From assembly GCF_001005215.1 (NCBI RefSeq), contig NZ_LBNQ01000005.1, forward strand, positions 1 to 58,895: 58,895 nucleotides of DNA, read 5' to 3'. Of the stretch, positions 4,898-31,016 are shown piece by piece (the stretch's first letter is position 1; each line of letters begins with the position of its first letter). Position numbers and translations under genes: made by a program. Under the pieces are notes generated by a model. It did not search any database, was not told where the DNA came from, and worked only from the letters and a program-made list of their open reading frames with translations. Source of the DNA: Lampropedia cohaerens (GTDB lineage Bacteria > Pseudomonadota > Gammaproteobacteria > Burkholderiales > Burkholderiaceae_C).

Positions 4898-4994
4898 TCA
4901 GGCCCTGAGCGCCGCTGCGTGGTGCGCGAAATGGTCTTCCATGAAACTGGCGATGAAGTAATAGCTGTGGTCGTAGCCCGGCTGCATGCGCAGC
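4898..4994 (-). pseudogene. fghA: 3' relic of S-formylglutathione hydrolase gene
   Basis: On the minus strand this encodes the last part of FghA, from [13 protein letters not shown] through the C-terminus, ending HHAAALRA and a TGA at 4900-4898. Bases 4914-4994 are identical to the intact gene at 30199-30279. The catalytic His motif (GYDHSYYF) is retained but the rest of the enzyme is missing. Upstream of the repeat the open frame continues for some 30 codons (through [11 protein letters not shown]) into sequence I do not recognise, then hits a stop. I read this as the displaced native 3' end of fghA, left behind when the neighbouring island inserted. Confidence 0.75.
4914..4994. repeat. 81-bp direct repeat, left copy (attL-like)
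   Basis: Identical over 81 bases, and in the same orientation, to 30199-30279. The repeat is the near-terminal coding sequence of fghA (codons about 247-272 of the intact gene). Perfect identity, including third codon positions, implies a recent event or a recombination target. The two copies bracket all the iac-region genes. Confidence 0.9.
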
Positions 4995-5098
4995 ATGGTG
5001 TTGTGCATGGCACGAACGGGCGTTCCGTTTGGAGCCTCGTGGCCAATGTCAAGGGTGTAGCGAGAAAATTGATTCCGTACGGGTTTGACAGATTATGC

Positions 5099-6019
5099 TC
5101 AAACGACGCGGTCGTCTTGCAAGCGAAACTGTCGGGGCGAGAGTTCATAACGGCGCTTGAAGGCTCGGCAGTACTGAGCCGAATCGAAGAAACCCCATTT
5201 GTGCGCGATGTCGGTGATGCTAAGACGGTTGGAGGAGCGATCGCGCAGGTCTTGTTCACTACGCGCCAGGCGCATGTTAGTGATGTAACGCGCAATGCCG
5301 TTTTCTTCTTTATCAAACAAGCGGTAGAGCTGGCGCAATGAGATGCCCAGGTAGTGTGCGACGTGGGTAGGGGAGAGGCCAGGTTCACTTAGGTTCTGCG
5401 CGATGAAGCGCTCCGCCAGCACTCGCTGACCATGTGGGGAACTGTCCAGCGATTGCTCGGCGCTTGCGTCACGCGCGCGGCGAAGCAGGGTGAGCATTGC
5501 GGTCTGGATTGCCTGGGAATCTGCGACTTGGGCGCTGCCGTAAGCGAGGGGCTGTGACTGCAACTGGTGCAGCATTTCCCGCAGCATGGGCGTGCACGGG
5601 CTGCGCAAGGAAAGCTTACCTGCGATAGTTGACTGACCTGTTTGAGACATGAGCGTGCGCGGCAGATGGACGGAAATTTGTTCGATGAAACCGTGAGGGC
5701 GCATTTGCAATTGAGCACAGCTATCGAGCAATGCCATGTCGCCAGGACGCAGCGCGAAATCCTGTTGGCCATTGAGCACCGACATGACACCGCGGCGCTG
5801 GAGGACGAGAAAGCAAAAGCGGTCATCCTGACGGCCTTCCCGCGTGCGCCATATGTTTGCCGCGTTTGTCCGAATGTTGGCTACCGTCAAGCCACTCCAG
5901 ACTGCGGCATGGATGCTGCCGGCAAATGGCCGCTGATCGGCAGGTGGACTGATCCGAAAGCCACCGCAGATGCGTTGGACATCCACTTCCCATTGGTCAA
6001 GGCAGTGCGCATTACTCAT
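5099..6019 (-). CDS. AraC-family transcriptional regulator, FeaR-like
   Basis: DNA-binding regulator of 306 residues. The N-terminal half is an AraC-binding-like ligand domain (FCFLVLQRRGVMSVLNG, RPGDMALLDS). The C-terminal about 100 residues hold the double helix-turn-helix (THVAHYLGISLRQLYRLF, ITDIAHKWGFFDSAQYCRAFKRRY, SPRQFR). The layout resembles FeaR, which controls aromatic amine and aldehyde oxidation in enterobacteria. The start at 6019 (MSNAHC) has GGAG six bases upstream. It is divergent from the alcohol dehydrogenase and aldehyde dehydrogenase genes and probably activates them. It is the first island gene next to the left repeat. Confidence 0.85.
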   Translation of the reverse strand: MSNAHCLDQWEVDVQRICGGFRISPPADQRPFAGSIHAAVWSGLTVANIRTNAANIWRTREGRQDDRFCFLVLQRRGVMSVLNGQQDFALRPGDMALLDSCAQLQMRPHGFIEQISVHLPRTLMSQTGQSTIAGKLSLRSPCTPMLREMLHQLQSQPLAYGSAQVADSQAIQTAMLTLLRRARDASAEQSLDSSPHGQRVLAERFIAQNLSEPGLSPTHVAHYLGISLRQLYRLFDKEENGIARYITNMRLARSEQDLRDRSSNRLSITDIAHKWGFFDSAQYCRAFKRRYELSPRQFRLQDDRVV

Positions 6020-6339
6020 GCTGGGCTCCAAAAGGAATCGAAGGCAGGAATCAGGTGCAGTCAAGTCAAGCTGCCGTGCACAACGTGTGCTGGTTGGTGC
6101 ATGGGCGGCTCCAGATGGCGGATTGCTTGCATGTCAAGCAATTTCTGTTCCATTTCCTGTGAAAAGTCATGTAGTTGAGTCGCTTGGCACGCAGTGCATG
6201 AGATCTGGCACGTAGCGCCAATTTCCAGCGCATTGTTGGTGCTTCAATGCAGCCACAGACCTTTCTCAGATTGATTGGCGATGCGGACATGTCGCGAATC
6301 AAAATGGGTTTGCACCACACCTTCTATGAAAGCACCAAC
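6020..6339. promoter_or_regulatory. Divergent araC/GMC promoter region
   Basis: About 320 bases without a convincing gene between two divergent coding regions. It contains ATGTCAAGCAATTTCTG near 6131 and the island motif at 6155-6183 (TTCCTGTGAAAAGTCATGTA and on), which recurs in the iacA/ABC gap. An open frame starting at 6247 could extend the dehydrogenase N-terminally, but it has no family similarity. Confidence 0.5.
6155..6183 (+). promoter_or_regulatory. Shared island operator-like motif, copy C
   Basis: TTCCTGTGAAAAGTCATGTA followed by GTTGAGTCGC. It matches 18231-18259 with a few substitutions and a one-base indel, and more loosely 18470-18494. All three copies are in divergent promoter gaps of the island. 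It is a candidate binding site for the FeaR-like regulator or for IacR. Confidence 0.5.
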
Positions 6340-7935
6340 ATGCAACAGGAATTTGATTACATCGTCGTGGGCGCTGGTTCGGCTGGCTGTGTGGTCGCCA
6401 CACGGCTGATCGAGGCAAAAGCAGGTACGGTTTTGCTATTGGAGGCAGGCGGTGTCGACAAGAGCCTGTTTCACAAGATTCCGGCTACGGTGGTAAAGGT
6501 GTTCCAGCAGAAATCGTGGCCTTACATGACCGAGCCGCAGAGACACTGTGGAAATCGTTCCATGCTCATCGCCCAGGGAAAGGTGCTGGGCGGAGGCAGC
6601 TCCGTCAACGGGATGATTTACATCCGCGGCCAGCGTGACGATTACGAAGACTGGGTCAGAGATTGGGGCGCGGCGGGATGGGGCTATGAAGATGTACTGC
6701 CGTACTTCAAGAAGGCTGAGCGCAACGAAAGTTTGGGGCCGCAGTTTCATGGGCAGGCAGGTCCGTGGCCTATCAGTGAGAACCGTTTTCGCCATCCTTT
6801 GACGGAGGCGTTCATCCGCGCGGGGCAGGAAATGGGGCTGCCCTATGTCAACGATTTCAATGGAGCGAATCAGGAAGGGGTGGGTTTCTACCAGACCAAT
6901 ACACTGCGTGGCGAGCGCATGAGTACGGCTCGAGCCTATCTCCAAAGAGTTCGCACTGATCCGGCCCTGACGGTAGTTACCGACGCGCTTACGCATCGTG
7001 TCACGCTTGAGGACGGATGGGCCCGAGGCGTCGAGTTCTCCGTCAAGGGAGATGCTGTGCAGCGCATACGTGCACGCAAGGAAGTGATTGTCAGCGCCGG
7101 CACTTTCGGCACGGCAAAGATCTTGCAGCTCTCAGGCATAGGCCCTGGAGCGCATCTGCAGGACATCGGTCTGGAGACCAAGGTAGATCTGCCCGTGGGG
7201 CTCAATTTCCATGACCACTTGCACATGTCACTCAACGCGACCATCCATGCACCCATCAGTTTTTTTGGAGAAGACCGACCGCTGAGGGCGCTGAGACATA
7301 TGCTGCAATGGCTTTGGTTCCGCACAGGAATGTTGACGAGCAACGTGCTCGAAGGCGGCGCGTTCATCGATTCGCAGGGCGTGGGGCGCCCCGACATTCA
7401 GTTCCATTTTCTGCCGCTGCTTGACAATTTTGACAACACGCCCGGAGAGAAACCGAAAGCCAGCGGGCATGGTTTGTCCGTGAAGGTTGGCCATCTACGT
7501 TCGAAATCTCGCGGGCAGGTCATGCTCAGAAGTGCTGATCCGTCGGAGCTGGTGAAAATTGACGCCAATTTTCTCTCTCACCCGGAGGATTTGGACAATC
7601 AAATCCGTGCGGTGCAAACAGGCTTGAAGATCTTGGCGCAACCTGCACTGCAAAACCTGATCACCAAGGTGACAGAGCCCGATGGTCTTGCCGCAGATGA
7701 CCGCGTTGGTCTGGAGGCATTTGTGCGCAAGAACATCAAGACCACCTACCACCCAGGGGGCACGGCTTGTCTGGGGTCGGTCACCGACATGGATCTACGC
7801 GTCAAAGGCGTGCGAGGTTTGCGAGTCGTCGACATGTCTATCTGTCCTCAGGTGCCAAGTGGCAACACCAATGCCGTTGCGGTGATGATCGGTGAACGCG
7901 GTGCCGATTTCATCCTCGGGCGAAAAACCGCCTGA
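6340..7935 (+). CDS. GMC-family FAD-dependent alcohol dehydrogenase
   Basis: Flavoprotein of 531 residues that oxidises an alcohol to an aldehyde. The N-terminal ADP-binding motif is VVGAGSAGCVVATRL (residues about 8-22), followed by the GMC signature GKVLGGGSSVNGMIYIRG. The C-terminal catalytic pair is His in TTYHPGGTACLG and Asn in PSGNTNAVAV. The start at 6340 (MQQEFDYIVVG) puts the dinucleotide fold at the N-terminus as the family requires; the ribosome site is weak. It is followed after 73 bases by an aldehyde dehydrogenase, so the pair would turn an alcohol into an acid. Beside an auxin-degradation cluster, indole-3-ethanol is a plausible substrate; this is inference. Confidence 0.9.
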   Translation: MQQEFDYIVVGAGSAGCVVATRLIEAKAGTVLLLEAGGVDKSLFHKIPATVVKVFQQKSWPYMTEPQRHCGNRSMLIAQGKVLGGGSSVNGMIYIRGQRDDYEDWVRDWGAAGWGYEDVLPYFKKAERNESLGPQFHGQAGPWPISENRFRHPLTEAFIRAGQEMGLPYVNDFNGANQEGVGFYQTNTLRGERMSTARAYLQRVRTDPALTVVTDALTHRVTLEDGWARGVEFSVKGDAVQRIRARKEVIVSAGTFGTAKILQLSGIGPGAHLQDIGLETKVDLPVGLNFHDHLHMSLNATIHAPISFFGEDRPLRALRHMLQWLWFRTGMLTSNVLEGGAFIDSQGVGRPDIQFHFLPLLDNFDNTPGEKPKASGHGLSVKVGHLRSKSRGQVMLRSADPSELVKIDANFLSHPEDLDNQIRAVQTGLKILAQPALQNLITKVTEPDGLAADDRVGLEAFVRKNIKTTYHPGGTACLGSVTDMDLRVKGVRGLRVVDMSICPQVPSGNTNAVAVMIGERGADFILGRKTA

Positions 7936-8008
7936 TCAGCGCCATACCCATTTGTCCGGGCGCCTTGCAATGCGCCACCACGTCGCTCAAGCGAATTGAG
8001 GAAATCCC

Positions 8009-9499
8009 ATGCCATGTATCCAGATCCTTCCAGAAGTGTTCTCGTTCCTAGAGCGTCAGCACGGTCAGTTCATTGATGGGCAGACGCGCGCGCCAGCCAG
8101 CGGCGCGGCCATGCTGAGTGTGACCAATCCCGCTACCGAATCGGTCATTGCGCAAGTAGCCGCTGCCAGCGAGGCAGAAGTGGATGCCGCCGTCGCTGCC
8201 GCTACTGCGGCATTTGAGGGAGTATGGGCGCAGACATCTCCCTATGAGCGCGGGCAGCTGTTGCTGCGTATGGCAGATGCGATGGAGGCCCACGGAGAAG
8301 AACTTGCGCAGATCGAATCACTTACGACAGGTAAGTCCATCCACCTTTCTCGCATGCTTGATGTTGGCCAAACGGCTGTGGCATTGCGCTACTACGCAGG
8401 TTGGGCGACCAAGATCAGTGGACAGACGCTTTCGCCTTCCTTTCCCTCATTGCGGGGCGAACGCTACAGTGCAATGACATTGCGAGAACCCGTTGGCGTC
8501 GTTGCAGGAATCATTCCCTGGAATTTTGGACCAATGATTGCTGCATGGAAGTTCGGTGCAGCACTGGCGTGCGGTTGCACCATGGTGCTCAAGCCCAGTG
8601 AATTTTCACCGTTGACGCTGTTGCGCATGGTTGAGCTTTTCACAGGCGCCGGCCTGCCAGACGGCGTTCTCAACATTGTCAATGGCGGGGGCGACTGTGG
8701 TCAGCAACTGATTCATCATCCGGATGTGGCAAAAGTTTCATTCACGGGTTCCGCAGGCACGGGCATCAAGGTGGGGCGGGCGGCCGTGGCAGCCCATCTG
8801 ACGCGGTTTACGCTTGAGCTGGGGGGCAAGAACGCGGCCATCTTGCTCGCGGATGCGAACGTGGATGCCGCTGTAACCGGCTTGCTGCAGACCGGCTACG
8901 TGCACCAGGGGCAGGTGTGTGCAGCTCCCGAGCGATTGTTTGTGTCGCAGGAGCGGGTAGACGAGGTCTGCGAAAAAATGGCGCAAGCACTCAGGCACTT
9001 GAAAATTGGCTCGCCGCTTGACGAAGCGGTGCAGCAGGGTCCCATCAGCAACAAACCCCAGTATGAGAAGGTCCTGCAGTACTTCGAAACCGCTCACCGG
9101 CAAAGTCAGGTGCTGTGTGGAGCGCGTGCGGTGGACGGCACAGGCTACTTCGTGGAGCCTACGCTGATACGTGCAAGAACCCCACAGGACGTGTTGCTGT
9201 GCGAGGAGGTATTTGGCCCTGTGCTGACCGTGATGCCCTATGAGGACGAAGGGCAGATGCTGGAATGGGTCAACGACACGCCGTTTGGGTTGTCAGCTAG
9301 TTTGTGGACGAATGATCTCGCAAAGGCCATGCGCCTCATCCCGCAGGTTCAGGCGGGCACAGTATGGGTAAACATGCATACGTTTCTGGACTGTGCCGTT
9401 CCCTTTGGGGGGGTGAAGGCTTCAGGTGTGGGACGTGAGCTCGGCAGCGCCTTCATCGACGACTATACCGAATTGAAGTCTGTCATCATGGCCTACTAG
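8009..9499 (+). CDS. NAD(P)-dependent aldehyde dehydrogenase
   Basis: Aldehyde dehydrogenase superfamily, 496 residues, oxidising an aldehyde to a carboxylate. The general base is Glu270 in FTLELGGKNA and the nucleophile Cys304 in GQVCAAPERL. The cofactor motif FTGSAGTG and the late motif EEVFGPVLTV are present. GAGGAA precedes the ATG. It forms a pair with the upstream alcohol dehydrogenase, beside a FeaR-like regulator. Enzymes of this subgroup act on phenylacetaldehyde, betaine aldehyde or similar compounds. Indole-3-acetaldehyde to indole-3-acetate is my contextual guess, because the iac operon follows. Confidence 0.92.
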   Translation: MPCIQILPEVFSFLERQHGQFIDGQTRAPASGAAMLSVTNPATESVIAQVAAASEAEVDAAVAAATAAFEGVWAQTSPYERGQLLLRMADAMEAHGEELAQIESLTTGKSIHLSRMLDVGQTAVALRYYAGWATKISGQTLSPSFPSLRGERYSAMTLREPVGVVAGIIPWNFGPMIAAWKFGAALACGCTMVLKPSEFSPLTLLRMVELFTGAGLPDGVLNIVNGGGDCGQQLIHHPDVAKVSFTGSAGTGIKVGRAAVAAHLTRFTLELGGKNAAILLADANVDAAVTGLLQTGYVHQGQVCAAPERLFVSQERVDEVCEKMAQALRHLKIGSPLDEAVQQGPISNKPQYEKVLQYFETAHRQSQVLCGARAVDGTGYFVEPTLIRARTPQDVLLCEEVFGPVLTVMPYEDEGQMLEWVNDTPFGLSASLWTNDLAKAMRLIPQVQAGTVWVNMHTFLDCAVPFGGVKASGVGRELGSAFIDDYTELKSVIMAY

Positions 9500-9627
9500 G
9501 GACTCGCAACTCTGGTGCCTGCACGTGTGTGACGAGCCAGGTTTCGAGGCTTGGACCCACAGTCGGGAGACCGACTTTAAACAGGCTCTTCGACGTGAAC
9601 GCCACGTCAGCGGCATCCCAGATGCTG

Positions 9628-9643
9628 TCCAATATGAGTTGGA
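9628..9643. promoter_or_regulatory. Inverted repeat upstream of iacR
   Basis: TCCAA-N6-TTGGA about 50 bases upstream of the iacR start. MarR proteins usually bind such dyads at their own promoters. No clear second copy was seen at iacA, so the assignment is tentative. Confidence 0.3.
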
Positions 9644-9694
9644 TAGAATCGATAGGCTTTACTGCATTGGCCTTTACGGGCGATTTCCGCCGAT

Positions 9695-10168
9695 ATGACG
9701 ATTCACAAGAGAGTAAGCCGATACAACCCGGCCAGCGAGGATTTCAGTAAGGAAGACTTTCCGTTCTACTGGATCGCGCGCTTGAACAATATCTATGTTC
9801 ATCATATGGAAAAGGCCTTGCGCAAGGTTGGTGCTGATGTGCCCACCTGGCGCGTGCTGTTCATTTTGAAGCAGAACGGCACATGCAGCATGTCGGAGAT
9901 CGCGTTGCACGCGGTGGTCAAGCTCTCGACCATCACTAAGATCGTCTATCGCATGAAGGCCGATGGGCTGGTGGAGACGAGGCCGTCTGCGGTGGATGGG
10001 CGTGTCACGGAGGTCTCCCTGACTGCACATGGGGAGGAGATGATTGTCGAGATGCAACGCGCTACCGAAAAGGTGTTTGCCCGGGGGTTCAGTGGCATGT
10101 CATCAGTGAAGATCGCCCGCCTTAACCATATGTTGGCGCAGATGTTCGAAAATCTGCGCGATGAGTAG
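9695..10168 (+). CDS. iacR: MarR-family regulator of indole-acetate degradation
   Basis: Winged-helix repressor of 157 residues. The dimerisation helices flank the MarR DNA-binding core: CSMSEIALHAVVKLSTITKI as the recognition helix region and the wing VDGRVTEVSLTAHGEE. Position and family match IacR, which in known iac clusters represses the operon until indole-3-acetate is present. The gene is convergent with iacI. The start lacks a strong ribosome site, but the family length fits. Confidence 0.85.
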   Translation: MTIHKRVSRYNPASEDFSKEDFPFYWIARLNNIYVHHMEKALRKVGADVPTWRVLFILKQNGTCSMSEIALHAVVKLSTITKIVYRMKADGLVETRPSAVDGRVTEVSLTAHGEEMIVEMQRATEKVFARGFSGMSSVKIARLNHMLAQMFENLRDE

Positions 10169-10336
10169 CGAATGGCTCCTCCCCACCTTACCTCCAAGCG
10201 TTCAGCGCTCTGATGGCGTGTGGCCTGTCAGGGCGTGGTCGTAATCGGCGAGATGGGATACGCAAGTGAACAGTCTCGAGCAGGGTGTTGAGAAAAGGTG
10301 CGTTGCGCGCCTCGCCAAAGTGGGCGACCGCTGTGA

Positions 10337-10900
10337 TCATGCCGTCATCAGCACCGATTTCTCAGGGATGCTGTGCGCCCAGCCGGGAGCCAGTGGCGCA
10401 ATAAATACGTTTTCAGTCCGGGTGCGAGTAATCAGCCAGCGGTTGTCAATACGCTGGAACCGATTGTTGAGTCGGCTCGATCGCAGCAATGAAGATCCAT
10501 CGCTGAATATCCAAGGCTGCATGTGCACCCACTGCCCCTCGGCATGGTCGCCATCGACGTGAATTTGCTCAGAGGTCAGGTAATGCACGTTGAAAACTAG
10601 TGGTAGATTGCGCTCGGTGCTCCAGAACTTTTCGAAGTGCGCACGGATAGCGGCCTTGCCGACGGCTTGGCCAAACTGGCCTTCGTAGTAGCTGCCGACG
10701 CCTTCCCAGACCGCGTCATCGGCATATAGCGCCATGATGCGATCGATGCGCTCGGCGTCATTTGCGACGGGTTCCGGGCATGGCGTGTCGCAGAGAAACA
10801 TGTATCGGGCCTGGATTCGGCGGATCTCGGATTCCGCCTCAAGACGGTCAACGCGGGAGCGCAAGGCGTTGATTGTGATGCTCAGCTCCTCAGTACGCAT
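10337..10900 (-). CDS. iacI: SnoaL-like protein IacI
   Basis: SnoaL/NTF2-like alpha-beta barrel protein of 187 residues. The N-terminal helix (LRSRVDRLEAESEIRRIQARY) and the pattern DRIMALYADDAVWEG...IRAHFEKFW...VHYLTSEQIHVDGDHAEGQW are typical of the fold. It is the last gene of the iac operon, 131 bases after iacH. In described clusters iacI accompanies iacH and its exact chemistry is not settled. AGGAAA lies upstream of the start. Confidence 0.85.
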   Translation of the reverse strand: MRTEELSITINALRSRVDRLEAESEIRRIQARYMFLCDTPCPEPVANDAERIDRIMALYADDAVWEGVGSYYEGQFGQAVGKAAIRAHFEKFWSTERNLPLVFNVHYLTSEQIHVDGDHAEGQWVHMQPWIFSDGSSLLRSSRLNNRFQRIDNRWLITRTRTENVFIAPLAPGWAHSIPEKSVLMTA

Positions 10901-11031
10901 GAATTAGGTTTCCTGTTTTGATGGTAAGTGGAATGGGAAGCCAAGTGATACTGCCGTGCAGGTACCGCGCGATATCTGCAAATCTGGTCCTCTGGCCGCG
11001 GCGATGTGCCGCAAATCCCAATGCGACGCGA

Positions 11032-12315
11032 TTACCGCAGGCGTGGTAGCAGCCAAGCTGCAGCGGCTAGCGTGGCATGATCGGCGTGAGGGGCGCCTAT
11101 GGCCTGCAGGCCTAGTGGCAGGCCGCGTGGGCCGCGCGCAAAAGGCAGGTGTATGCACGGCAAGCCCAGCAGTGTCCAGGGCCGACAGTAGAGTGGATCG
11201 CCTGTGCCTTCCTCGAACAGGGGCGCTTCGCCAGCGGCGCTGGGAGCCAGCAGTACATCCGCGTCCCTAAACAGATCGGCCAGTTGTCCGCGGGCTCGTG
11301 CGGCACGGTCTAACTGTGCGGCGTAATGGGCATGCGGCATCTCTAGGCCTCGCGCGATGACGCCGCGCAACGTGACGCCGAGCTGCTCTTCATGACGTAG
11401 CCGTTCGTCGCTGAGCGCCCGCGCTGTCTCGTAAGCCATGATGTCGATGTGTGCCTGCGCGAGGTCATCAAAACCGGCGGGCAGGTCGATGTCGGTGACC
11501 GTGGCGCCTGCGCGTTCAAGCATGCCGGGCACCATGGCTAAGAGTGCCTTGGTCTCGGCGGCAACACCGTCCCATTGCGCCGTGCGGCACAATCCCACGC
11601 GTGGTGCGTGGTCGATGGAAAGGTCCATCAGCTGCTGATTGCCACTGAGGCAGGCTGCCAGCAGTGCTACATCTTCGACCTCGCGCCCGATCGCACCGAT
11701 GGTGTCGAGCGAATCGCTCAGGCCCTTAACGCCCGTACGGGCAATGGCGCCGAAGGAAGGCTTGTAGCCCACCACCCCACAGTAGGCGGCAGGACGGATG
11801 ATGGAGGCGGCCGTTTGCGAGCCAAATGCCATCGGCACCATGCCCGCTGCCACAGCTGCGCAAGAGCCGCTGGAAGATCCACCCGGCGTATGCGCGTGAT
11901 TGTGCGGGTTGCGCGTGGGTCCCGCCTGGAAGGTGGCAAATTCTGTTGTCACAGTCTTGCCTAACGCAATGGCACCGGCTTCGCGGCACAGCGCAACGGT
12001 GGCGGCATCGGCGCAGGGCTGATGGCCTGCATAGATGGGGGATCCATAAGCGGTAGGCATATCCCACGTGTCGAAGACATCTTTAATGCCCAAGGGCAAG
12101 CCATGAAGCATGCCCTGAACGGCTCCGGCGTCGAGTTGGCGTGCGCGATTGAGTGCCGTATCTTTGGCGACGTGGGTCCAGGCCTGAAGTTGTGGCTCTA
12201 GCTCGGCGATGCGTTCCAGACAGGCATACACCACATCGGTGGCGCGGAAATCGCGTTGTTGCAGGCCGCGCGCCAGCGCAGCGGCACCGAGTTCGTTCAG
12301 AGGTGGGTGGTTCAT
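11032..12315 (-). CDS. iacH: Amidase-signature hydrolase IacH
   Basis: Amidase-signature enzyme of 427 residues. The Ser-cisSer-Lys triad is visible: Lys78 (LPLGIKDVFDT), the Gly/Ser-rich motif GGSSSGS at 145-151, and the nucleophile Ser171 in GSQTAASIIRPAAYCG. It is expected to cleave an amide or the lactam of an oxindole-type intermediate; its precise role in the pathway is undefined in the literature I know. It sits 29 bases after iacG, in the order seen in other iac operons. Confidence 0.88.
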   Translation of the reverse strand: MNHPPLNELGAAALARGLQQRDFRATDVVYACLERIAELEPQLQAWTHVAKDTALNRARQLDAGAVQGMLHGLPLGIKDVFDTWDMPTAYGSPIYAGHQPCADAATVALCREAGAIALGKTVTTEFATFQAGPTRNPHNHAHTPGGSSSGSCAAVAAGMVPMAFGSQTAASIIRPAAYCGVVGYKPSFGAIARTGVKGLSDSLDTIGAIGREVEDVALLAACLSGNQQLMDLSIDHAPRVGLCRTAQWDGVAAETKALLAMVPGMLERAGATVTDIDLPAGFDDLAQAHIDIMAYETARALSDERLRHEEQLGVTLRGVIARGLEMPHAHYAAQLDRAARARGQLADLFRDADVLLAPSAAGEAPLFEEGTGDPLYCRPWTLLGLPCIHLPFARGPRGLPLGLQAIGAPHADHATLAAAAWLLPRLR

Positions 12316-12344
12316 GATTGTGGTTCAGGTAGAGAGGGAGGGCG

Positions 12345-12872: not shown

Positions 12873-12903
12873 GACAGGGCTCCTGTGGCGCGAGGGGATG
12901 CTC

Positions 12904-13863: not shown

Positions 13864-13880
13864 GAGTAGCCCGCCCTTGC

Positions 13881-14645: not shown

Positions 14646-14662
14646 TGTGATGTTCCTTGTGG

Positions 14663-15139: not shown

Positions 15140-15160
15140 TTTTGGGTTCCCCATGAGCAC

Positions 15161-19714: not shown

Positions 19715-19724
19715 TGCATACGGT

Positions 19725-19781: not shown

Positions 19782-19818
19782 TATCGCCTGAATTGACAAA
19801 TCAATTTCCGTATACACG

Positions 19819-20856: not shown

Positions 20857-20857
20857 G

Positions 20858-23454: not shown

Positions 23455-24527
23455 ATACGCGCAATGTCTCTTCGGCGCTGCGCGTAGGCATCGCGGGTGC
23501 TGGTGCCATCGGCTGCACGCTGGCTGCATTACTTGCACGAGCCGGGGCGCGCGTGCATGTACTCGCCCGCGGCGCCAGCCTGACCAGCTTGCGCAGCGAG
23601 GGTGTTCGACTGCACCGCAGAGGCGACTGCTTGCAGGCGCCAGTGCTGGCGAGCGATGATGCAAGTGGGCTGGGACCGCAGGATGTGTTGTTTCTCTGCG
23701 CCAAGGCACACGACATGCAACAGTTGCTGCGGTCCGCGCTGCCCATGATCGGTCCTGAGACCTGCGTCGTGCCGTTAGTCAATGGCGTGCCGTGGTGGTA
23801 CTTTCAGGCGCTGCCCGGTCCCTGGCAAGGGCGCCGGGTGCAGGCGGTCGACCCCGAGGGAACGCTGTCAGCGTTGCTGCCGGCCACCCAGATCGTCGGA
23901 GCAGTAGTTTTTATTACCGCCGAGCGTGTGCGCCCAGGAGAGGTGGTTTCCGACAACCCACTGCTCATGGTTCTTGGCGAAATTGACCATGCAGGCAGTT
24001 CCGCTCGGCTTCAGCGGCTGGCCGACTGGCTGGAGAGAGCTGGTATTGAGGCGCGCGTCACACCGCAAATCCGCGATGCGTTATGGACCAAGATTTTGGC
24101 CAATCTGACTTCGAATCCCTTGTCTGTCATCAGTGGCGCAACGTTGCAATCCATCTACGGTGACACACGACTGCTCGCCATCGTGTGGGAGATGCTGCGC
24201 GAGGGCCTGTCTCTGGCGGCGGCATTCGGTGCACGCATCGCCTTCACACCGGCAAATTTCATCCGCGAGGGCGCTGCGATGGGGGCAGTGCGTACTTCAA
24301 TGCTGCAGGACTTTGAGGCAGGTCGGCGGTTGGAACTCGCTGCTATTGGCGATGCGGTATTGGAGTTAGCCACTCTTCAGGATATTGCCATGCCTGTCAC
24401 CGAGCGTGTGATTGCGCTGGCGCATTTCCGCGACGAGGCACGTGCCGCATCCGATGACATCGCGCCCGTCGATCCCACCCAACTCCCAAAACCCAACAAG
24501 GAGGTTTTTCATGAACAGTGTCGCTGA
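23451..24527 (+). CDS. Ketopantoate reductase (ApbA/PanE) family protein
   Basis: NADPH-dependent 2-dehydropantoate 2-reductase family member of 358 residues, longer than PanE (about 300). The Rossmann motif is VGIAGAGAIGCTLAALLARAG at the N-terminus. The catalytic-lysine motif is LWTKILANLTSNP, and the C-terminal helical domain is present. It overlaps LivF by ATGA and the aldolase gene by 17 bases. In a catabolic operon it more probably reduces or oxidises a 2-keto or hydroxymethyl compound than makes pantoate. The substrate is unknown. Confidence 0.85.
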   Translation: MNTRNVSSALRVGIAGAGAIGCTLAALLARAGARVHVLARGASLTSLRSEGVRLHRRGDCLQAPVLASDDASGLGPQDVLFLCAKAHDMQQLLRSALPMIGPETCVVPLVNGVPWWYFQALPGPWQGRRVQAVDPEGTLSALLPATQIVGAVVFITAERVRPGEVVSDNPLLMVLGEIDHAGSSARLQRLADWLERAGIEARVTPQIRDALWTKILANLTSNPLSVISGATLQSIYGDTRLLAIVWEMLREGLSLAAAFGARIAFTPANFIREGAAMGAVRTSMLQDFEAGRRLELAAIGDAVLELATLQDIAMPVTERVIALAHFRDEARAASDDIAPVDPTQLPKPNKEVFHEQCR

Positions 24528-25299
24528 CTTTTCTTCCGCACCTGTTGAGATGCACCGCGCGCCCGATTGCTCCGACGAGGAGTGGAGGTTGCGCTGCCAG
24601 CTCGCCGAGTGCTACCACCTGATCGACTATATGGGCTGGACGGAGACGATTTTCAACCATATTTCGGCTCGTCTGCCTGGTCCAGCCCATCACTATCTGG
24701 TCAATCCGTTCGGTCTGAACTATACGGAAATCACGCCCGCCAACTTGCTGAAAGTCGACCTGGATGGCCACAAGCTGCAGGAGTCGCCCTACGACGGTAA
24801 TCCCGCAGGATTTGCTCTGCACGCTGCCATTCATGCCGCCCGCGAGGATGTGCAATGTGTCATTCACACGCACACCACGCCGCTGTCTGCCGTGGCTCAG
24901 AAGCAAGCGGGTTTCGATCACAACAACTTTTATGGCGCACAGCTTTACGGCCGCGTTGGCTATCACAGCTTCGAGGGCATCACGTTGTTTGCGGATGAGA
25001 AGGAGCGCATGGTTGCCAGTCTGGGCGACAAGCACATCCTGGTGCTCCGCAACCATGGTATCGCGGTGGCAGAAGGGTCCATCGCCAAGGCGTTCTTCCT
25101 GCTTTGGACGGTGCAGCGCGCCGGGGAGATCCAGTGTGCTTCGGCTGCGCTGCCTGGACCGGACACGCAGCTGCCCGATGCCATCAAGACCAAATGCATG
25201 GAATTGACCGCGATGTTGATCCGAGAGGGAGATTTTGCCAACAAGTTCTTCGATGCGATGGTGCGCAAAATGCGCGCCGAACGTGGTCCGAGCTGGTGA
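24511..25299 (+). CDS. Class II aldolase/adducin-family protein
   Basis: Protein of 262 residues with the zinc-binding pattern of class II aldolases: HTHTTPLSAVAQ and a late His in LRNHGIAVAEGS. AAGGAGG precedes the start at 24511. It could cleave or decarboxylate a hydroxyacid made by the preceding reductase. The family also includes non-aldolase catabolic enzymes, so the reaction cannot be assigned. Confidence 0.87.
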   Translation: MNSVADFSSAPVEMHRAPDCSDEEWRLRCQLAECYHLIDYMGWTETIFNHISARLPGPAHHYLVNPFGLNYTEITPANLLKVDLDGHKLQESPYDGNPAGFALHAAIHAAREDVQCVIHTHTTPLSAVAQKQAGFDHNNFYGAQLYGRVGYHSFEGITLFADEKERMVASLGDKHILVLRNHGIAVAEGSIAKAFFLLWTVQRAGEIQCASAALPGPDTQLPDAIKTKCMELTAMLIREGDFANKFFDAMVRKMRAERGPSW

Positions 25300-25353
25300 G
25301 CGAACTCACACAGCCGTGCTGTTTTCTTCACGAGACATACCGGGAGCATTGAA

Positions 25354-26325
25354 ATGACAGACCGTTTCAAGGCAGCGTGGGTAGCCACGGTACTTGCCGC
25401 TGTTAGTGTTGCCACGCAGGCGCAGGAGGTGACGCTCAAGGCGATCAATGCCTTCCAAGAGGGCACCTACTTCGCCCAGAACTTCGAGGCCTTCGTGAAG
25501 AAAGTCAACGAGGAAGGCAAGGGGCTTGTGCAGATCCAATACATTGGTGGGCCCAAGGCGATTCCGACGCTGGAGCAGCCTGCGGCGTTACGCAATGGTG
25601 TCGTGGATATGGCCGCCACCACGGCCTCCTATGCAGGTGGCATCGTGCCTGAGGTGCAGGCGCTCAACTATGCCACGGTGCCATTTCAGGAGCTGCGCAG
25701 AAATGGCGCGCTAGATTACATCAACCAGCTGATGGCCGAGAAAAACTTGATGTACTTTGCGCGTACCGGTGATGGCGTCAAGTACCACCTTTATTTGACA
25801 AAGCCGATTAGCCGACCTGATCTCAGCGGTCTGAAGGTCCGCATTGCGCCCAACTTTCGTGAATTTTTCCAAGCACTGGGTGCCACCGTCATTCAGACCC
25901 CGCCAGGTGAGGTTTATACCGCGCTGGAGCGTGGAGTTGTCGATGGCTATGGGTGGCCACTGCTGGGCGTGTTTGATATGGGGTGGCAGCAAGTCACGAA
26001 GTACCGCGTTGATCCAGGTTTTCATAACCTGGAGATGGGGGTGCAGTTCAACCTCAAGTCCTGGCAAAAACTCTCCCCCGAGCAGCAAACCTTTCTTGAG
26101 CGTCAGCGTGATTGGCTGGAGAGGCTGGCTCTGGAGAAATCCATGGCGGATGTGGCCATTGATCTCCAGCGCCAACAAGATGCAGGGATTCAGGTCATTA
26201 CGTTCAAAGGTGAGGATGCGCAGGAGTATCTGCGCAAGTCACTTGATACCGCGTGGGCCGGCATCATTCGACTCAGCCCGGAGCACGGGCCCAAGCTTCG
26301 TGAACTCATGGTCGCAGAGCAATGA
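25354..26325 (+). CDS. TRAP transporter periplasmic binding protein (DctP)
   Basis: Solute-binding protein of 323 residues. It has a signal peptide (MTDRFKAAWVATVLAAVSVA) and DctP-family landmarks (YIGGPKAIPTLEQPAALRNG, DLSGLKVRIAPNFREFFQALGA, ALERGVVDGYGWPLLG). The Arg in KVRIAP usually contacts the ligand carboxylate, so the cargo is probably an organic acid. It begins the TRAP set (P, Q, M) 54 bases after the aldolase gene. Confidence 0.9.
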   Translation: MTDRFKAAWVATVLAAVSVATQAQEVTLKAINAFQEGTYFAQNFEAFVKKVNEEGKGLVQIQYIGGPKAIPTLEQPAALRNGVVDMAATTASYAGGIVPEVQALNYATVPFQELRRNGALDYINQLMAEKNLMYFARTGDGVKYHLYLTKPISRPDLSGLKVRIAPNFREFFQALGATVIQTPPGEVYTALERGVVDGYGWPLLGVFDMGWQQVTKYRVDPGFHNLEMGVQFNLKSWQKLSPEQQTFLERQRDWLERLALEKSMADVAIDLQRQQDAGIQVITFKGEDAQEYLRKSLDTAWAGIIRLSPEHGPKLRELMVAEQ

Positions 26326-26364
26326 CGGCTGATTCCTTGAGAAAAATGCAGGGGTGCCTGAGCC

Positions 26365-26859
26365 ATGAAGGCCTATGACTATTTGATGCGCGGCCTGGGT
26401 GCCTGTGCCGCGTGCATTGTCGCTGTATTGACGGTTGTCGTAACTTATGACGTGCTGGCGCGCAATCTGGGCTTGGGCAGCCTGGACTGGATTCTCGAAG
26501 TGTCCGAATATGCACTGCCGACGCTCATCAGTTTGACTGCTCCTTGGTTGATGTACCGCAACCAGCATGTGCGACTGGATGTGCTGCAGTCCATGCTGCC
26601 GGAATCCGCGCGGCGCCTGGTCGAACGCGCGGCTGCGGCCATCGGGATGGTTGCGGCGGCGATGTTCGCCTGGTATGCGTTGACTTTGCTGCTTGATTCG
26701 CGTCAGTCTGGCGCACTGGTGATCAAAGCGTTGGTGTTTCCGGAATGGTGGCTGTATATCGGCATGCCGATTGGCTTTGCGCTTTTGTCCATTGAATGCG
26801 CGCGTCGCATGTTTCTGCCAGCGACTGCGCAGGACGAAGCCGCACCGGGAGGACTGTGA
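26365..26859 (+). CDS. TRAP transporter small membrane subunit (DctQ)
   Basis: Protein of 164 residues with four predicted membrane segments and the family motif LDWILEVSEYALPTLISLTAPWL...RLDVL. It joins the DctP protein and the large DctM subunit. Its stop overlaps the next start as TGATG. Confidence 0.88.
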   Translation: MKAYDYLMRGLGACAACIVAVLTVVVTYDVLARNLGLGSLDWILEVSEYALPTLISLTAPWLMYRNQHVRLDVLQSMLPESARRLVERAAAAIGMVAAAMFAWYALTLLLDSRQSGALVIKALVFPEWWLYIGMPIGFALLSIECARRMFLPATAQDEAAPGGL

Positions 26860-28187
26860 TGGAGTGGTGGCAGACTCTGATTCTTTTTTTTGGCGGCCTG
26901 ACGCTTTTGCTGTGTGCTGGTCTGCCTGCGGGCCTTACGTTCATTTGCATCAATCTGATCGGTGCATTTGTGTACCTAGGCGGCGAGGCCGGTCTTATGC
27001 AGTCGGTGCGCAACGGTATTGCATCGGTTACTAACTTCTCACTGACACCGATTCCGTTCTTCCTGCTGATGGGGGAGCTGCTTTTTCGTTCCGGAGTTGC
27101 GTTCAAGGCCATCGATGCGTTTGATCGGGTCATTCGCCGAGTGCCGGGACGGCTGGCTGTGGTGGCAGTAGTGGGTGGAACGGTGTTCTCGGCGATATCC
27201 GGCTCATCGGTAGCGACCACCGCATTGCTGGGAAGCGTGCTTTTGCCGGAGATGCTGCGACGCAGGTACCACCCTCGACTGGCTACCGGCCCCATCATGG
27301 CGATTGGTGCGGTGGACATGCTGATTCCACCATCGGCAATAGCGGTGCTGTTGGGCAGCCTGGGGCAGATCTCGATTGCAGGCTTGCTCATCGCTGGACT
27401 CATGCCGGGCTTGCTGCTGGCGCTGATGTTCATCGTGTTCATCATCGTTCGCGTACGTATTTCGCCCGACTGGGCCCCCGGCTCAGATGGAGAGGCCGAG
27501 GACGGTCTCGATGGCTGGCAGCGCTGGCGCGCGTTGGTGCTGCATGTGCTGCCGCTGGTAGCGATCTTCGTGCTGGTTGTGCTTTCAATGACATTGGGTT
27601 GGGCAACCCCTACGGAGTCGGCCGCTGTGGGCGCATCGGCATGTCTGCTGGTGTGCCTGTTGCATCGCAGCCTGACGTGGAAAAATCTGACGGTATCGCT
27701 GATGAACACGGCGGCGTTGACCGGCATGATTCTGTTCATCATCATTGGCGCGTCGACGTTTTCGCAGATTCTGGCCTTTTCTGGTGCAACTGATGGGTTA
27801 GTGCGCGGCATCCTCGGCTCGGGCCTGCAGTCCTGGATGGTGCTGGCGTTGATGATGCTGATCCTGCTGCTGCTTGGCTGTTTTGTCGACCAGGTCAGCA
27901 TGATGCTGATGACGTTGCCCTTCTACATACCGCTGATGCAGCATTTTGGGTGGGATCCGTTATGGTTTGGTGTGCTTTATCTGATCTGTATGCAGCTTGG
28001 ACTGTTGACCCCACCGTTTGGCATGCTCGTGCTGACAATGCGTAGCGTGACACCTCCCAATATTGCGACGTCCGAGCTGTTCCTGGCCGTCGCGCCGTAT
28101 GTCCTGTTCGGATTGATGATGCTCGTGCTGGTGATAGTTCTGCCAGGTATCGCTACTTGGTTGCCAGCCTGGCTGTCGATCCACTGA
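26859..28187 (+). CDS. TRAP transporter large membrane subunit (DctM)
   Basis: Permease of 442 residues with about twelve hydrophobic segments and DctM signatures (GRLAVVAVVGGTVFSAISGSS, PPSAIAVLLGSLGQISIAGL, PTESAAVGA, LLTPPFGMLVLTM). It drives secondary, ion-coupled uptake of the ligand delivered by DctP. The start at 26859 is preferred because it overlaps the DctQ stop by one base; the frame is open further upstream. Confidence 0.9.
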   Translation: MEWWQTLILFFGGLTLLLCAGLPAGLTFICINLIGAFVYLGGEAGLMQSVRNGIASVTNFSLTPIPFFLLMGELLFRSGVAFKAIDAFDRVIRRVPGRLAVVAVVGGTVFSAISGSSVATTALLGSVLLPEMLRRRYHPRLATGPIMAIGAVDMLIPPSAIAVLLGSLGQISIAGLLIAGLMPGLLLALMFIVFIIVRVRISPDWAPGSDGEAEDGLDGWQRWRALVLHVLPLVAIFVLVVLSMTLGWATPTESAAVGASACLLVCLLHRSLTWKNLTVSLMNTAALTGMILFIIIGASTFSQILAFSGATDGLVRGILGSGLQSWMVLALMMLILLLLGCFVDQVSMMLMTLPFYIPLMQHFGWDPLWFGVLYLICMQLGLLTPPFGMLVLTMRSVTPPNIATSELFLAVAPYVLFGLMMLVLVIVLPGIATWLPAWLSIH

Positions 28188-28232
28188 CGTGGCTGCGCAC
28201 GAGCTGGACGCATTGAATCGGAGATATAGACA

Positions 28233-28736
28233 ATGACTGCCGAAGCGACGACTGCCCACGGTGTTCCTGCCTCGCATGTGCACGCATTGCATGCGGTGCG
28301 CAAAAACGGCTATTGGCTGGCGCTTTTGCCGCAGGCCTGGCGCGACGATGAAACGATTGTGCGAGAGGCTGTCGCGCGCACCGGAATGGCGCTGGAGTTC
28401 GCTTCTTCGCGTCTACGTGCAGACAGGCAGGTAGTGATGCTGGCGGTATCGAACGATGGGTTGGCGCTCAGTGTGGCAGACCAGTCACTGCGCGGTGATC
28501 GGGAGGTGTTGCGATGCGCTGCCCGCAACAACTTTCTGGTTTACAGCCTCGCAGCCAGGGAGCTCCGTGCGGATGAGGACTTCATGGTGGACCTTTTTCG
28601 CAACGTGGTGCGACCGCAGATCCTGTGCGGATTCATGCCTGAAGAGGTTCCTCAGCTGCTCGATGAGGCTCTGCAGCAGAGGCGCCACGCGCGTATGGCT
28701 TTTTTCCAAGAACTCCATATTTCTGAGCTTTCCTGA
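28233..28736 (+). CDS. DUF4116-type repeat protein
   Basis: Protein of 167 residues built from short repeats of the pattern (L.AS..LR.D..VV..AV...G.AL..A), as in DUF4116 domains. Examples are FASSRLRADRQVVMLAVSNDGLALSVADQSLRGD, split over two units. No signal peptide or membrane segment is seen. It follows the TRAP genes after 45 bases and ends at a strong terminator. The function of the family is unknown. Confidence 0.7.
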   Translation: MTAEATTAHGVPASHVHALHAVRKNGYWLALLPQAWRDDETIVREAVARTGMALEFASSRLRADRQVVMLAVSNDGLALSVADQSLRGDREVLRCAARNNFLVYSLAARELRADEDFMVDLFRNVVRPQILCGFMPEEVPQLLDEALQQRRHARMAFFQELHISELS

Positions 28737-28776
28737 GCGCTTGCCAATTTGCCTCGGCGGAATGGACCGATAAAGG

Positions 28777-28802
28777 AAAAGGTCATCAAACGATGACCTT
28801 TT
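28777..28802. terminator. Bidirectional intrinsic terminator
   Basis: An 11-bp perfect stem (AAAAGGTCATC with GATGACCTTTT) and a 4-base loop between two convergent genes. It has T-runs on both strands and ends both the ABC/TRAP operon and the porin gene. Confidence 0.9.
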
Positions 28803-28836
28803 GGAGCGTTGCCGCAGGGGGAAAGTAGAGCGCTGC

Positions 28837-29853
28837 TCAAAAACGGTGCCGCAGACCGACTGCCAGACCTACGCGGGAATCCTTGCCACTGGCAGGAACG
28901 AGCGCATCCGAGAACTTGGTGTAGTCAATGCCGATGTAGGGCTGGGTACGCTTGGAGAGGTAGTACTCGGCCGTCAGAATACCGGCTGTGCGCTTCCCAC
29001 TGATGTTGCTGATATCGCTTTTGGTGTGCAGCATTTCACCAAGCAACTTCATGCTGGATGAAACGTCATAGCCAAACCCGACCGCATAGGTCTTGTCTTC
29101 ACGATTCGTGACATCGTTCTTGTGTCCGAGATAAAAGGCGTGGAGCTTGATCGCGTTGAACTGGTAGGTGCCGCCAAGCGAATAGCTCTTGCGTTTGGCA
29201 TCGGTCGTTTCGATGCTGGGCTTTTCCTGCATGTAGGCGCCTCCAAACTGCCAGTTCGCGCCTTTGTAGACCAAGGCGGCTCCAAGTGGATAGCTCGTCT
29301 TACTCTTGCTGTTGTCAATCACACCCATTGCGCTGACGACAAAGCCGCCAATCTGGTGTGTGTAGCGCACCGAGCTGTCATAGCGCGGCGTGTACTGTGC
29401 ACCCACGTAGTAGGCCCATTCCGGATAGTTGGCAACGTCCAGTGCGTCAATGCCGTTGAAGGCCAGAAACTCATGGATCATTCCATATTGACGTCCAATG
29501 GTGATTTGGCCCAAGGACTTGCTCTTGAGGCCAACGGATGTGAGGCGGTTGAAGTAACGAGAGCCATCACCAGCGGCGCCGGTAGTAGGATCTAGCCCGA
29601 TCTCCATGGCAAAGATGGCCTGCAGATCGTCACTGAGTGTTTCATTGCCTCGAAAGCCCAATCGGGATGCAGTGCGTGAACCGTTGGACAGCTTGGTGCT
29701 GCTGTCAGCGGAGGCATCCGTGTTGTTGGTGTAGCGGATCCCCGCATCAACTAAGCCATAAATGGCAACTGAGGAGCCTGCCTGCGCAAACAGTGCTGAT
29801 GACAGCACCGAGCCTGCGAGGATCACAGGATATTGCTTGAGTTTCAGAGACAT
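28837..29853 (-). CDS. Gram-negative outer-membrane porin
   Basis: General porin of the betaproteobacterial trimeric type, 338 residues. It has a signal peptide (MSLKLKQYPVILAGSVLSSA to FAQA), the mature start SSVAIYGLVDAGIRYTN, the eyelet-loop region after GLDPTTGAAGDGSRYFNR, and a C-terminal Phe (VGLAVGLRHRF) needed for outer-membrane insertion. The start at 29853 has AAGGAA upstream. As the last island gene, it probably gives passage to the island's substrates. Confidence 0.92.
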   Translation of the reverse strand: MSLKLKQYPVILAGSVLSSALFAQAGSSVAIYGLVDAGIRYTNNTDASADSSTKLSNGSRTASRLGFRGNETLSDDLQAIFAMEIGLDPTTGAAGDGSRYFNRLTSVGLKSKSLGQITIGRQYGMIHEFLAFNGIDALDVANYPEWAYYVGAQYTPRYDSSVRYTHQIGGFVVSAMGVIDNSKSKTSYPLGAALVYKGANWQFGGAYMQEKPSIETTDAKRKSYSLGGTYQFNAIKLHAFYLGHKNDVTNREDKTYAVGFGYDVSSSMKLLGEMLHTKSDISNISGKRTAGILTAEYYLSKRTQPYIGIDYTKFSDALVPASGKDSRVGLAVGLRHRF

Positions 29854-29956
29854 GGGAGGGTTCCTTCTTCCGTGAGGCACACAAAGAGGTTTTGGATTTT
29901 CATGCCCAAAACTTCTCCGCATGGCTTTTGACTTTCATCGAATGGTGATGCGTTCA

Positions 29957-29971
29957 TGACCAAATTGGTCA
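29957..29971. promoter_or_regulatory. Palindromic operator-like site upstream of porin
   Basis: TGACCAAATTGGTCA is a perfect dyad about 105 bases upstream of the porin start. Sites of this form bind GntR, MarR or LysR-type regulators. The regulator is unknown. Confidence 0.45.
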
Positions 29972-30009
29972 GGAAGATGGCCAGCAAAAAACATGCCAAT
30001 TCACGGTTT

Positions 30010-30035
30010 AAATCATTTGAAATTTCAAATGATTT
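30010..30035. promoter_or_regulatory. 26-base perfect AT-rich palindrome
   Basis: AAATCATTTGAAA with its exact reverse complement directly abutting, followed on the plus strand by a pyrimidine tract. It could be an operator for the porin or a recombination-end feature. As a terminator it would lack a loop. Confidence 0.45.
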
Positions 30036-30079
30036 TCTGTTCTTTTTCTCTTGGTTGGTACAGTGTGAAGAACGCGGGA

Positions 30080-30129
30080 AGGCCTGTGCACCGATTGCGA
30101 CCATCTGTTCGCAATCGGTGCACGGGCCT
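30080..30129. repeat. Large hairpin near right island end
   Basis: Arms of 21 bases with one mismatch (TGCACCGATTGCGA core, 14 bp perfect) around an 8-base loop. It lies 48 bases beyond the fghA stop and 70 bases from the right 81-bp repeat. No T-run follows on the minus strand, so it is not a classic terminator. Confidence 0.7.
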
Positions 30130-30176
30130 GACTAGGCAGAGAGCGTACTGGACGGTTGCTGGGTGTGCCCGCCGAC

Positions 30177-31016
30177 TCAGCGCGGATTCGCAAATGCTGC
30201 TGCGTGGTGCGCGAAATGGTCTTCCATGAAACTGGCGATGAAGTAATAGCTGTGGTCGTAGCCCGGCTGCATGCGCAGCGTGATGGGGTGGCCCGCCGCC
30301 TCGCAGGCAGCCTGCAGCAGCTGGGGACGCAGCTGTTCAGCGAGGAATTCATCTGCCTCGCCCTGGTCGACCAGCAGGGGCAGACGTTCCTTGGCGGTCG
30401 CGATCAGCGCCGTGGCATCCCAGTTCAGCCATTGTTCACGGTCATTGCCGAGATAGGCCGCCAGTGCCTTCTGACCCCAGGGAACCTGGCTGGGTGCCAC
30501 GATGGGCGAGAACGCAGATACCGACCGGTAGCGGCCGGGGTTGCGCAAGGCCGTGACGAGCGCACCATGGCCGCCCATGGAGTGGCCAAAGATGCCGCGC
30601 ACGTCCGTGGCTGGAAAGTGCTGCTCAATCAGCGCGGGCAATTCCTCGGCCACATAGCGCTGCATCTGGTAATGCGTGGCCCAGGGCGCCTGCGTGGCAT
30701 CGACATAGAAGCCGGCGCCCTGGCCCAGGTCGTAGGCGGGGTCGTCTGCCACGCCCTCGCCGCGCGGGCTGCTGTCCGGCGCGACGACAATGATGCCGTG
30801 GCGCGCGGCGTACTGCTGTGCGCCGGCCTTGGTGATGAAGTTCTGCTCGGTGCACGTCAGCCCAGACAGCCAGTACAGCACCGGGCAGCGCTGGCCCTGC
30901 AGTGCGGCAGGAGGCAGATAGACCGCCACTTTCATCGTGCAGTTCAGTGTGGTGGAGGCGTGTTGCCAGACTTCCTGGCGGCCGCCAAAGCTGGCGTGTT
31001 GTTCGATGCGTTGCAT
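30177..31016 (-). CDS. fghA: S-formylglutathione hydrolase
   Basis: Serine hydrolase of 279 residues, the last step of glutathione-dependent formaldehyde oxidation (S-formylglutathione to formate and glutathione). The nucleophile is Ser146 (GHSMGG), with Asp222 (GEADEF) and His254 (GYDHSYYF). AGGAG precedes the ATG. It lies at the end of the frmR-adhC-methyltransferase operon. The last residues (FANPR) differ from the relic at 4898-4994 (LRA), so the C-terminal tail appears to come from the inserted island. The catalytic residues are intact. Confidence 0.95.
   Translation of the reverse strand: MQRIEQHASFGGRQEVWQHASTTLNCTMKVAVYLPPAALQGQRCPVLYWLSGLTCTEQNFITKAGAQQYAARHGIIVVAPDSSPRGEGVADDPAYDLGQGAGFYVDATQAPWATHYQMQRYVAEELPALIEQHFPATDVRGIFGHSMGGHGALVTALRNPGRYRSVSAFSPIVAPSQVPWGQKALAAYLGNDREQWLNWDATALIATAKERLPLLVDQGEADEFLAEQLRPQLLQAACEAAGHPITLRMQPGYDHSYYFIASFMEDHFAHHAAAFANPR
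30199..30279. repeat. 81-bp direct repeat, right copy (attR-like)
   Basis: Identical to 4914-4994. It lies inside the intact fghA, spanning the catalytic-His motif and ending six codons before the stop. Confidence 0.9.

Follow-up and report, generated by a model that had tools for sequence, protein, structure and literature searches.

Known systems and the fghA locus

Genomic islands and prophages insert in the 3′ ends of the protein genes icd, guaA and prfC, where a repeat is derived from the end of the gene, the gene is rebuilt and its old end is displaced. An arrangement of this kind is present in Lampropedia cohaerens CT6T, a hot-spring bacterium: a 25-kb block of genes predicted to serve the breakdown of the plant hormone auxin (indole-3-acetic acid, IAA) lies directly behind fghA, the gene of S-formylglutathione hydrolase, and has quite probably been inserted there, by one route or another. 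Unlike the icd, guaA and prfC islands, the block is without an integrase and its target would be fghA, which to our knowledge is not a known island insertion site. The window, meaning the whole stretch of DNA analysed, spans 58,895 nucleotides of contig C5, one of 41 contigs in a genome of 3,158,922 bases. Full-text searches on S-formylglutathione hydrolase or fghA with integration did not bring up this gene as an integration site; ICEPni1, as far as the excerpts of its description go, carries frmA/frmB as cargo and inserts in tRNA-Gly genes.

In Pseudomonas putida 1290, the iac cluster lies on a predicted genomic island of about 30 kb where, similarly to CT6T, iac genes are accompanied by genes that act on plant compounds, phenylacetaldehyde among them; in contrast, that island is a software prediction, and the available sections of the report describe no fghA target or repeat (PMC6624763). 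Two Acinetobacter plasmids (NZ_CP015595 and CP042210) combine in one stretch the iac genes, a branched-chain-type ABC transporter, ApbA/aldolase genes and a module of feaR, a GMC oxidoreductase and an aldehyde dehydrogenase, with 74–75% (IacC) and 61% (GMC) identity to CT6T. These genes are plasmid-borne, unlike those of CT6T, and the stretches compared contain no TRAP transporter or fghA match. Another parallel is offered by effector modules of the type VI secretion system and by Rhs genes, for which C-terminal displacement was proposed to proceed via homology-facilitated illegitimate recombination (PMC5361080). According to the portion of that work at hand, incoming DNA is anchored in a conserved stretch and the old downstream part is pushed off and kept, as would be the case here; the difference is that effector-immunity modules are moved rather than a 25-kb catabolic block, and that the homology anchor in CT6T is a candidate. 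Islands at gene 3′ ends and displaced gene ends are thus already known kinds, and what is new is the fghA location and the lack of an integrase.

Anatomy of the repeat and of the two fghA ends

The block is bounded by an 81-bp direct repeat, 4914–4994 and 30199–30279, whose copies are equal in every letter, as a preliminary description of this DNA had claimed. Their starts are 25,285 bp apart, with 25,204 bp between the copies (4995–30198), and a whole-genome search with the 95-bp surround of the repeat returned two sites only. A chance origin was rejected because, apart from this pair, a single direct repeat of at least 25 bp was reported for the window, a 25-mer at 84%. The right copy corresponds to nucleotides 738–818 of an intact fghA of 279 codons, the product of which matches TIGR02821 (S-formylglutathione hydrolase) with 413.7 bits against a cut-off of 281.7. 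In the left copy, the match to fghA starts at about residue 242 and the sequence ends in AAALRA and a stop codon at 4898–4900, vs FANPR in the intact gene; the earlier account of an intact right-hand gene and a left-hand relic with a different tail was therefore correct. The same account placed a terminator at 4850–4878, and a terminator-like hairpin with a T-run was indeed found close by, at 4859–4877 on the reverse strand, 3′ of the left fghA end and followed by a catalase gene. Taken alone, this single hairpin is weak evidence, because shuffled sequences give 0.6 on average.

The 3′ ends of fghA from 109 loci, 99 of them distinct, were compared in order to judge the two tails. Leucine occupies the position of the relic's leucine in 91 of the 99 distinct ends, and phenylalanine, found there in the intact CT6T gene (AAFANPR), in only one; seven ends finish in LRA and none in FANPR. 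A second genome of the genus, G003, has an fghA ending in KTLSASA, with the usual leucine. From these counts, the relic appears to bear the native fghA end and the FANPR tail of the intact gene looks acquired. The proposal that an island gave fghA a new tail and displaced the old one is in line with this, as the canonical tail is on the left and the non-canonical one on the right, in a gene that stays intact at 279 amino acids and whose 3′ end is comprised in the repeat.

A mis-joined draft could in principle produce the same picture. The chromosome would then run from fghA with the LRA end through the hairpin to the catalase gene, next to a 25,285-bp circle with one 81-mer, or both forms would coexist. 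According to the part of the genome report available, CT6T was assembled with ABySS at k=51 from 3,056,502,960 bases in 33,961,144 reads of about 90 bp each (PMC5015223). Such a read barely spans 81 bp, and with this read length and k both joins of the block rest on read pairs. This explanation is nevertheless very improbable: with the paired libraries of 500 bp and 2 kb, the repeat could be resolved, the block of G003 lies beside fghA on a 457-kb contig, and no replication gene is among the 22 open reading frames (ORFs) of the block that were scanned.

Composition and distribution of the block

The GC content at third codon positions (GC3) was compared between 16 block genes and 178 background genes from 16 genome stretches, chosen by the same script selection. 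Mean GC3 is 0.687 in the block and 0.788 (sd 0.050) in the background; all 16 block genes fall below the lower background quartile of 0.760 (Mann-Whitney p=1.7e-9), and the background stretch with the lowest mean reaches 0.740. Overall GC is 0.587 in the block vs 0.636 in the remaining window, and the comparison that the preliminary description had proposed for 4995–30198 thus gives a foreign-looking composition. The low GC3 is not imposed by gene content, because the same genes are host-like in G003 (0.888 over 19 shared genes, beside 0.91 for rpoD, 0.83 for fghA and 0.84 for adhC). In CT6T, rpoD, fghA, adhC and the catalase gene have values of 0.80–0.83. The GC3 of the repeat itself, counted by hand, is 21/26 and also host-like.

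Among ten genomes of the genus (CT6T included; two are 77–80% complete), the block occurs in CT6T and G003 only. IacC is 93% identical between these two, and the other eight reach at most 38%. In G003, the part of the block from marR to the porin gene lies directly behind fghA, in the order and orientation seen in CT6T, and coincidence is an unlikely reason for this shared place. Since fghA is hence hardly hit at random, the block either travelled with fghA homology or is an fghA-targeting element. The genome of G003 has no fghA relic and no match to the CT6T catalase; the feaR-GMC-aldehyde dehydrogenase module is absent from the left end of its block, and the best GMC match in that genome is at 38%. 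No relic comparable to that of CT6T was found in 59 relatives, with one decayed fragment in G011, so that the same two copies, which would have spoken against an island had they occurred in relatives without iac genes, are not repeated there.

The search for a donor gave no block closer than that of G003. Matches were obtained in 13 of 399 family genomes at E<=1e-150 (CT6T included; G003 is not among the matches listed and was apparently not drawn into this sample) and in two of 399 order genomes at E<=1e-200 (CT6T included). No fghA match was found in 11 iac regions of other genera, which cover 5–60 kb, some on short contigs, and leave out G360 and G461. Plasmid searches returned no close block and no record covering 80% of an iacC–iacA stretch, and positions 4995–5098 match no fetched locus outside the CT6T genome.

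In G409, a genome of another genus (L205, 11346–15148), the iac block leads on to a porin gene, then a MarR-type gene, a siderophore-interacting-type gene and adhC. The latter is about 3 kb from the iac block and 91% identical to CT6T adhC, an arrangement hinting at an older link of iac with formaldehyde-oxidation genes, or at chance.

Age of the probable insertion

Over 76 bp, G003 fghA departs by 12% from a sequence that the relic and CT6T fghA share without any difference; for this reason the duplication, or its last homogenisation, is recent and younger than the split of CT6T and G003. An older insertion common to both genomes, inherited vertically, would require that gene conversion kept the relic equal to fghA and that G003 lost its relic. 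An unrooted tree of rpoD, adhC and fghA from eight genomes does pair CT6T and G003 with a support of 0.994 (0.491 for rpoD and 0.873 for fghA in single-gene trees; adhC does not pair them), and the two agree at 84% over 70 bp in the porin-side part of the spacer that separates fghA from the porin gene. The divergences of block and core genes also overlap, so that divergence alone does not date the arrival of the block. Vertical inheritance is still quite improbable, as a long-resident block should be host-like in composition, whereas its GC3 is 0.69 in CT6T vs 0.89 in G003. In addition, the left module is not found at the G003 block, and gene conversion over just 81 bp at a distance of 25 kb would need to be frequent.

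Possible routes of insertion

We infer the direction, the donor and the recombination route as follows. The ancestor of L. cohaerens CT6T would have carried adhC, a methyltransferase gene, fghA with the LRA end, the terminator and the catalase gene in this order. An auxin-catabolic block of about 25 kb, from a donor with lower GC3, would have been inserted at the 3′ end of fghA with duplication of its last 81 bp; the reading frame would have been kept and gained the tail AAFANPR, and AAALRA with the hairpin would have been left beyond the block as the original end, now displaced. Three routes would yield this anatomy: an integrase acting on an attachment (att) site in fghA, a crossover with an fghA-bearing molecule, and end joining with a long duplication of the target.

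The likeliest route may be recombination of the RecA type with fghA as its anchor, from a donor that would already have had the block beside fghA, as in G003. It could have been one crossover with a circle of DNA on which a 3′ fragment of fghA was present or, in a second variant, homology-facilitated illegitimate recombination. Because in G003, too, the block immediately follows fghA and has the same orientation, a homology anchor is favoured over integrase insertion with modest confidence; the adhC gene near the iac block in G409 and a contig without integrase are further points in its favour. Insertion and homology-anchored route together form a tentative account, possible rather than established.

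The alternative is an integrase-type genomic island, for which fghA would provide attB at its 3′ end; the 81 bp would be the cores of attL and attR, and the integrase would have been lost or would act in trans. It would explain the identical core, the rebuilt gene and the displaced old end as in islands at gene 3′ ends, and it agrees with the shared place and orientation in G003 and with a FANPR tail that looks element-supplied. Seven PF00589 matches in the genome could act in trans; however, none of the seven is on contig C5, where the preliminary description had likewise seen no integrase, and no integrase or transfer gene is among the 22 scanned ORFs of the block. This alternative is considered somewhat unlikely. 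Of the original proposal, the island at the fghA 3′ end is thus backed by composition, tails and patchy presence, and the role of fghA as an integrase att site is not supported.

An integrase profile, made from 17 of these enzymes, was used to scan the ORFs of the fghA loci, the flanks of which are of unequal length, many only 1.5 kb, so that an integrase farther off could be missed. Integrase-like ORFs occur near fghA in four distinct genomes, none directly behind the gene and the nearest 1.9 kb away with two ORFs between (L081); two others presumably have a XerC/D-like domain make-up. The idea that fghA is a general integrase hot spot was rejected accordingly. The genomes of L034 and L081 hold no extra relic-type fghA end (that of L081, G428, has a second full-length copy at 55%), and 124 fghA loci, some genomes being represented twice, show no long second fghA 3′ end, with five matches of 23–46 bp only. 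Isolated fghA-end fragments are confined to CT6T and G011 among 200 family genomes (CT6T included), and G078 and G087 have partial matches with the look of split-gene halves. No clear integrase arm-site repeats were seen at the block ends. A pattern scan of viral contigs gave one match, an unrelated contig, and of the 11 phage records with a match, one (OR845573, 2 kb) has an fghA fragment at its end.

The G011 fragment (L137, about 8250–8350; G011:C15:193249–193350) is a decayed fghA 3′ end covering residues 242–275, almost the range of the CT6T relic, with a stop. It directly follows an ORF that by eye resembles a GGDEF/EAL gene; the genome has no further fghA match, and no integrase was seen in the vicinity. 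For the left copy in CT6T, an origin as another decayed fghA of this kind was rejected, since the G011 fragment is 53% identical and carries a stop, vs 100% identity here. A viral contig (L258, 1–327) opens with an fghA-like 3′ fragment that continues in frame into a phage-like gene, and an ORF that by eye is portal-like lies downstream; the listed ORFs include no integrase by eye, and the fusion is possibly a chimera.

Several observations weigh against a homology-anchored insertion of foreign DNA. The empty site, fghA with the LRA end running into the hairpin and the catalase gene, was found in no relative; the proposed alignment with island-free relatives therefore delivered the canonical fghA ends but not this junction. 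The CT6T catalase has a match in 27 of the 59 relatives only, and the nearest fghA-catalase pair on one contig is 15 kb apart (G049). As regards composition, the 5th percentile of background GC3 is 0.688, so that single block genes are low yet inside the host range, and the mean over 19 flank genes of the window is 0.773. Divergence between CT6T and G003 at fourfold sites is 0.34–0.57 for block genes, overlapping the values of fghA (0.50) and adhC (0.35). The fghA side of the fghA-porin spacer has no significant alignment to G003, and the adhC adjacency in G409 could by itself be chance, with 11 regions of 5–60 kb examined. FANPR is unlike any native fghA tail seen and fits read-through into foreign DNA better than the end of a donor fghA. 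Finally, a donor as diverged as G003 should have left several differences between the copies, yet all 81 bp agree; either the donor fghA end was nearly identical, therefore, or both copies are host-derived.

Gene content of the block and other features

By domains, iacA to iacI and a MarR-type iacR are found together in the block (Table 1). The letter names follow gene order and, in part, a published description (PMC11373566). Matches to the iac stretch at E<=1e-5 were obtained for 9 of 10 iac proteins on NZ_CP015595 and for 10 of 10 on CP042210, some at 25–35% only. Because iac, ABC transporter, ApbA/aldolase and the feaR-GMC-aldehyde dehydrogenase module are also combined on these two plasmids, 4995–30198 reads as one catabolic unit. 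By inference from the gene set, the left module would turn alcohols or aldehydes, for instance tryptophol or indole-acetaldehyde, into IAA, which the predicted iac enzymes would convert to catechol. The palindrome upstream of the porin gene is possibly an operator and the 24-bp inverted repeat possibly a terminator, and adhC would by context encode the glutathione-dependent formaldehyde dehydrogenase.

Table 1. Features of the fghA locus and the catabolic block, in window coordinates.
Feature	Position	Strand	Basis or remark
Catalase, left flank	3198..4748	-	Pfam PF00199/PF06628; GC3 0.82, host-like
Terminator-like hairpin behind putatively displaced fghA end	4859..4877	-	
fghA 3′ relic	4898..4994	-	Repeat copy 4914–4994 plus presumed original LRA tail and stop 4898–4913
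Putatively inserted block	4995..30198		25,204 bp between repeat copies; composition and anatomy
FeaR-type AraC regulator	5099..6064	-	NCBIfam NF007243 equivalog, 265.3 bits, cut-off 199
GMC oxidoreductase, probably alcohol dehydrogenase	6247..7935	+	Pfam; 61% to GMC gene beside iac on two Acinetobacter plasmids
Aldehyde dehydrogenase	8009..9499	+	Nearest models StyD-type phenylacetaldehyde dehydrogenase, below cut-off
MarR regulator, iacR-like	9695..10168	+	Pfam; 93% to G003
SnoaL-like protein, iacI-like	10337..10900	-	Pfam; Acinetobacter plasmid comparison
Amidase, iacH-like	11032..12315	-	Pfam; 28–29% to Acinetobacter amidases
Flavin reductase, iacG-like	12345..12872	-	Pfam
2Fe-2S reductase, iacF-like	12904..13914	-	Pfam; 50% to Acinetobacter plasmid protein
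SDR, iacE-like	13881..14645	-	Pfam; 50–53% to Acinetobacter plasmid proteins
Ring-hydroxylating dioxygenase small subunit, iacD-like	14663..15160	-	NCBIfam below cut-offs; 55–56% to Acinetobacter
Rieske dioxygenase large subunit, iacC-like	15161..16459	-	Pfam; 93% to G003; 74–75% to Acinetobacter
iacB-like	16572..16976	-	66% to protein annotated IacB on NZ_CP015595; no NCBIfam match
Acyl-CoA-dehydrogenase-like, iacA-like	16973..18205	-	Pfam; 55% to Acinetobacter
Branched-chain-type ABC transporter: binding protein, permease, permease-ATPase, ATPase	18566..23454	+	Pfam
ApbA/PanE-type reductase and class II aldolase	23451..25299	+	Pfam
TRAP transporter dctPQM	25354..28187	+	Pfam
DUF4116 protein	28233..28736	+	Pfam
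Porin, right end of block	28837..29922	-	Pfam; 81% to the G003 porin next to fghA
Perfect 13+13 palindrome upstream of porin	30010..30035		Largely retained in G003
Inverted repeat of 24 bp (92%) in the porin–fghA spacer	30080..30129		
Putative new fghA tail (FANPR and stop)	30177..30198	-	
81-bp repeat, right copy, within fghA	30199..30279	-	
fghA, S-formylglutathione hydrolase, intact	30177..31016	-	TIGR02821, 413.7 bits
adhC, zinc-dependent alcohol dehydrogenase near fghA	31642..32754	-	Pfam; 94% to G003

Two further features of the window were recorded. Positions 42035–42303 hold an element that resembles a miniature inverted-repeat transposable element; it measures about 270 bp, and its terminal inverted repeats have 25 bp each (AGAACCTGTTTACG...); a related copy stands to the right of marR in G003 (L139, 16300–16569), and single-end matches occur in 4 of 20 CT6T genome stretches. 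Two tRNA-Asn genes, at 35944–36019 (-) and 36263–36338 (+), are identical in 76 of 76 bases, of opposite orientation and 243 bp apart.

Implications

Through recombination in fghA, the integrase-free block may leave and re-enter as a circle via the 81-bp repeat, thereby switching the fghA tail, and auxin-catabolic islands may, within the family, repeatedly land at the 3′ end of fghA; both together are regarded as an unlikely, speculative extension. At the junction itself, recent-looking and still identical, an entire predicted auxin-degradation pathway would have been slotted behind a housekeeping gene with no visible recombinase, and the 3′ end of fghA can be named as a testable site for such transfers. 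If the capture was indeed homology-anchored, the locus would illustrate, in a clean case from nature, how gene ends are displaced at the scale of a complete pathway.

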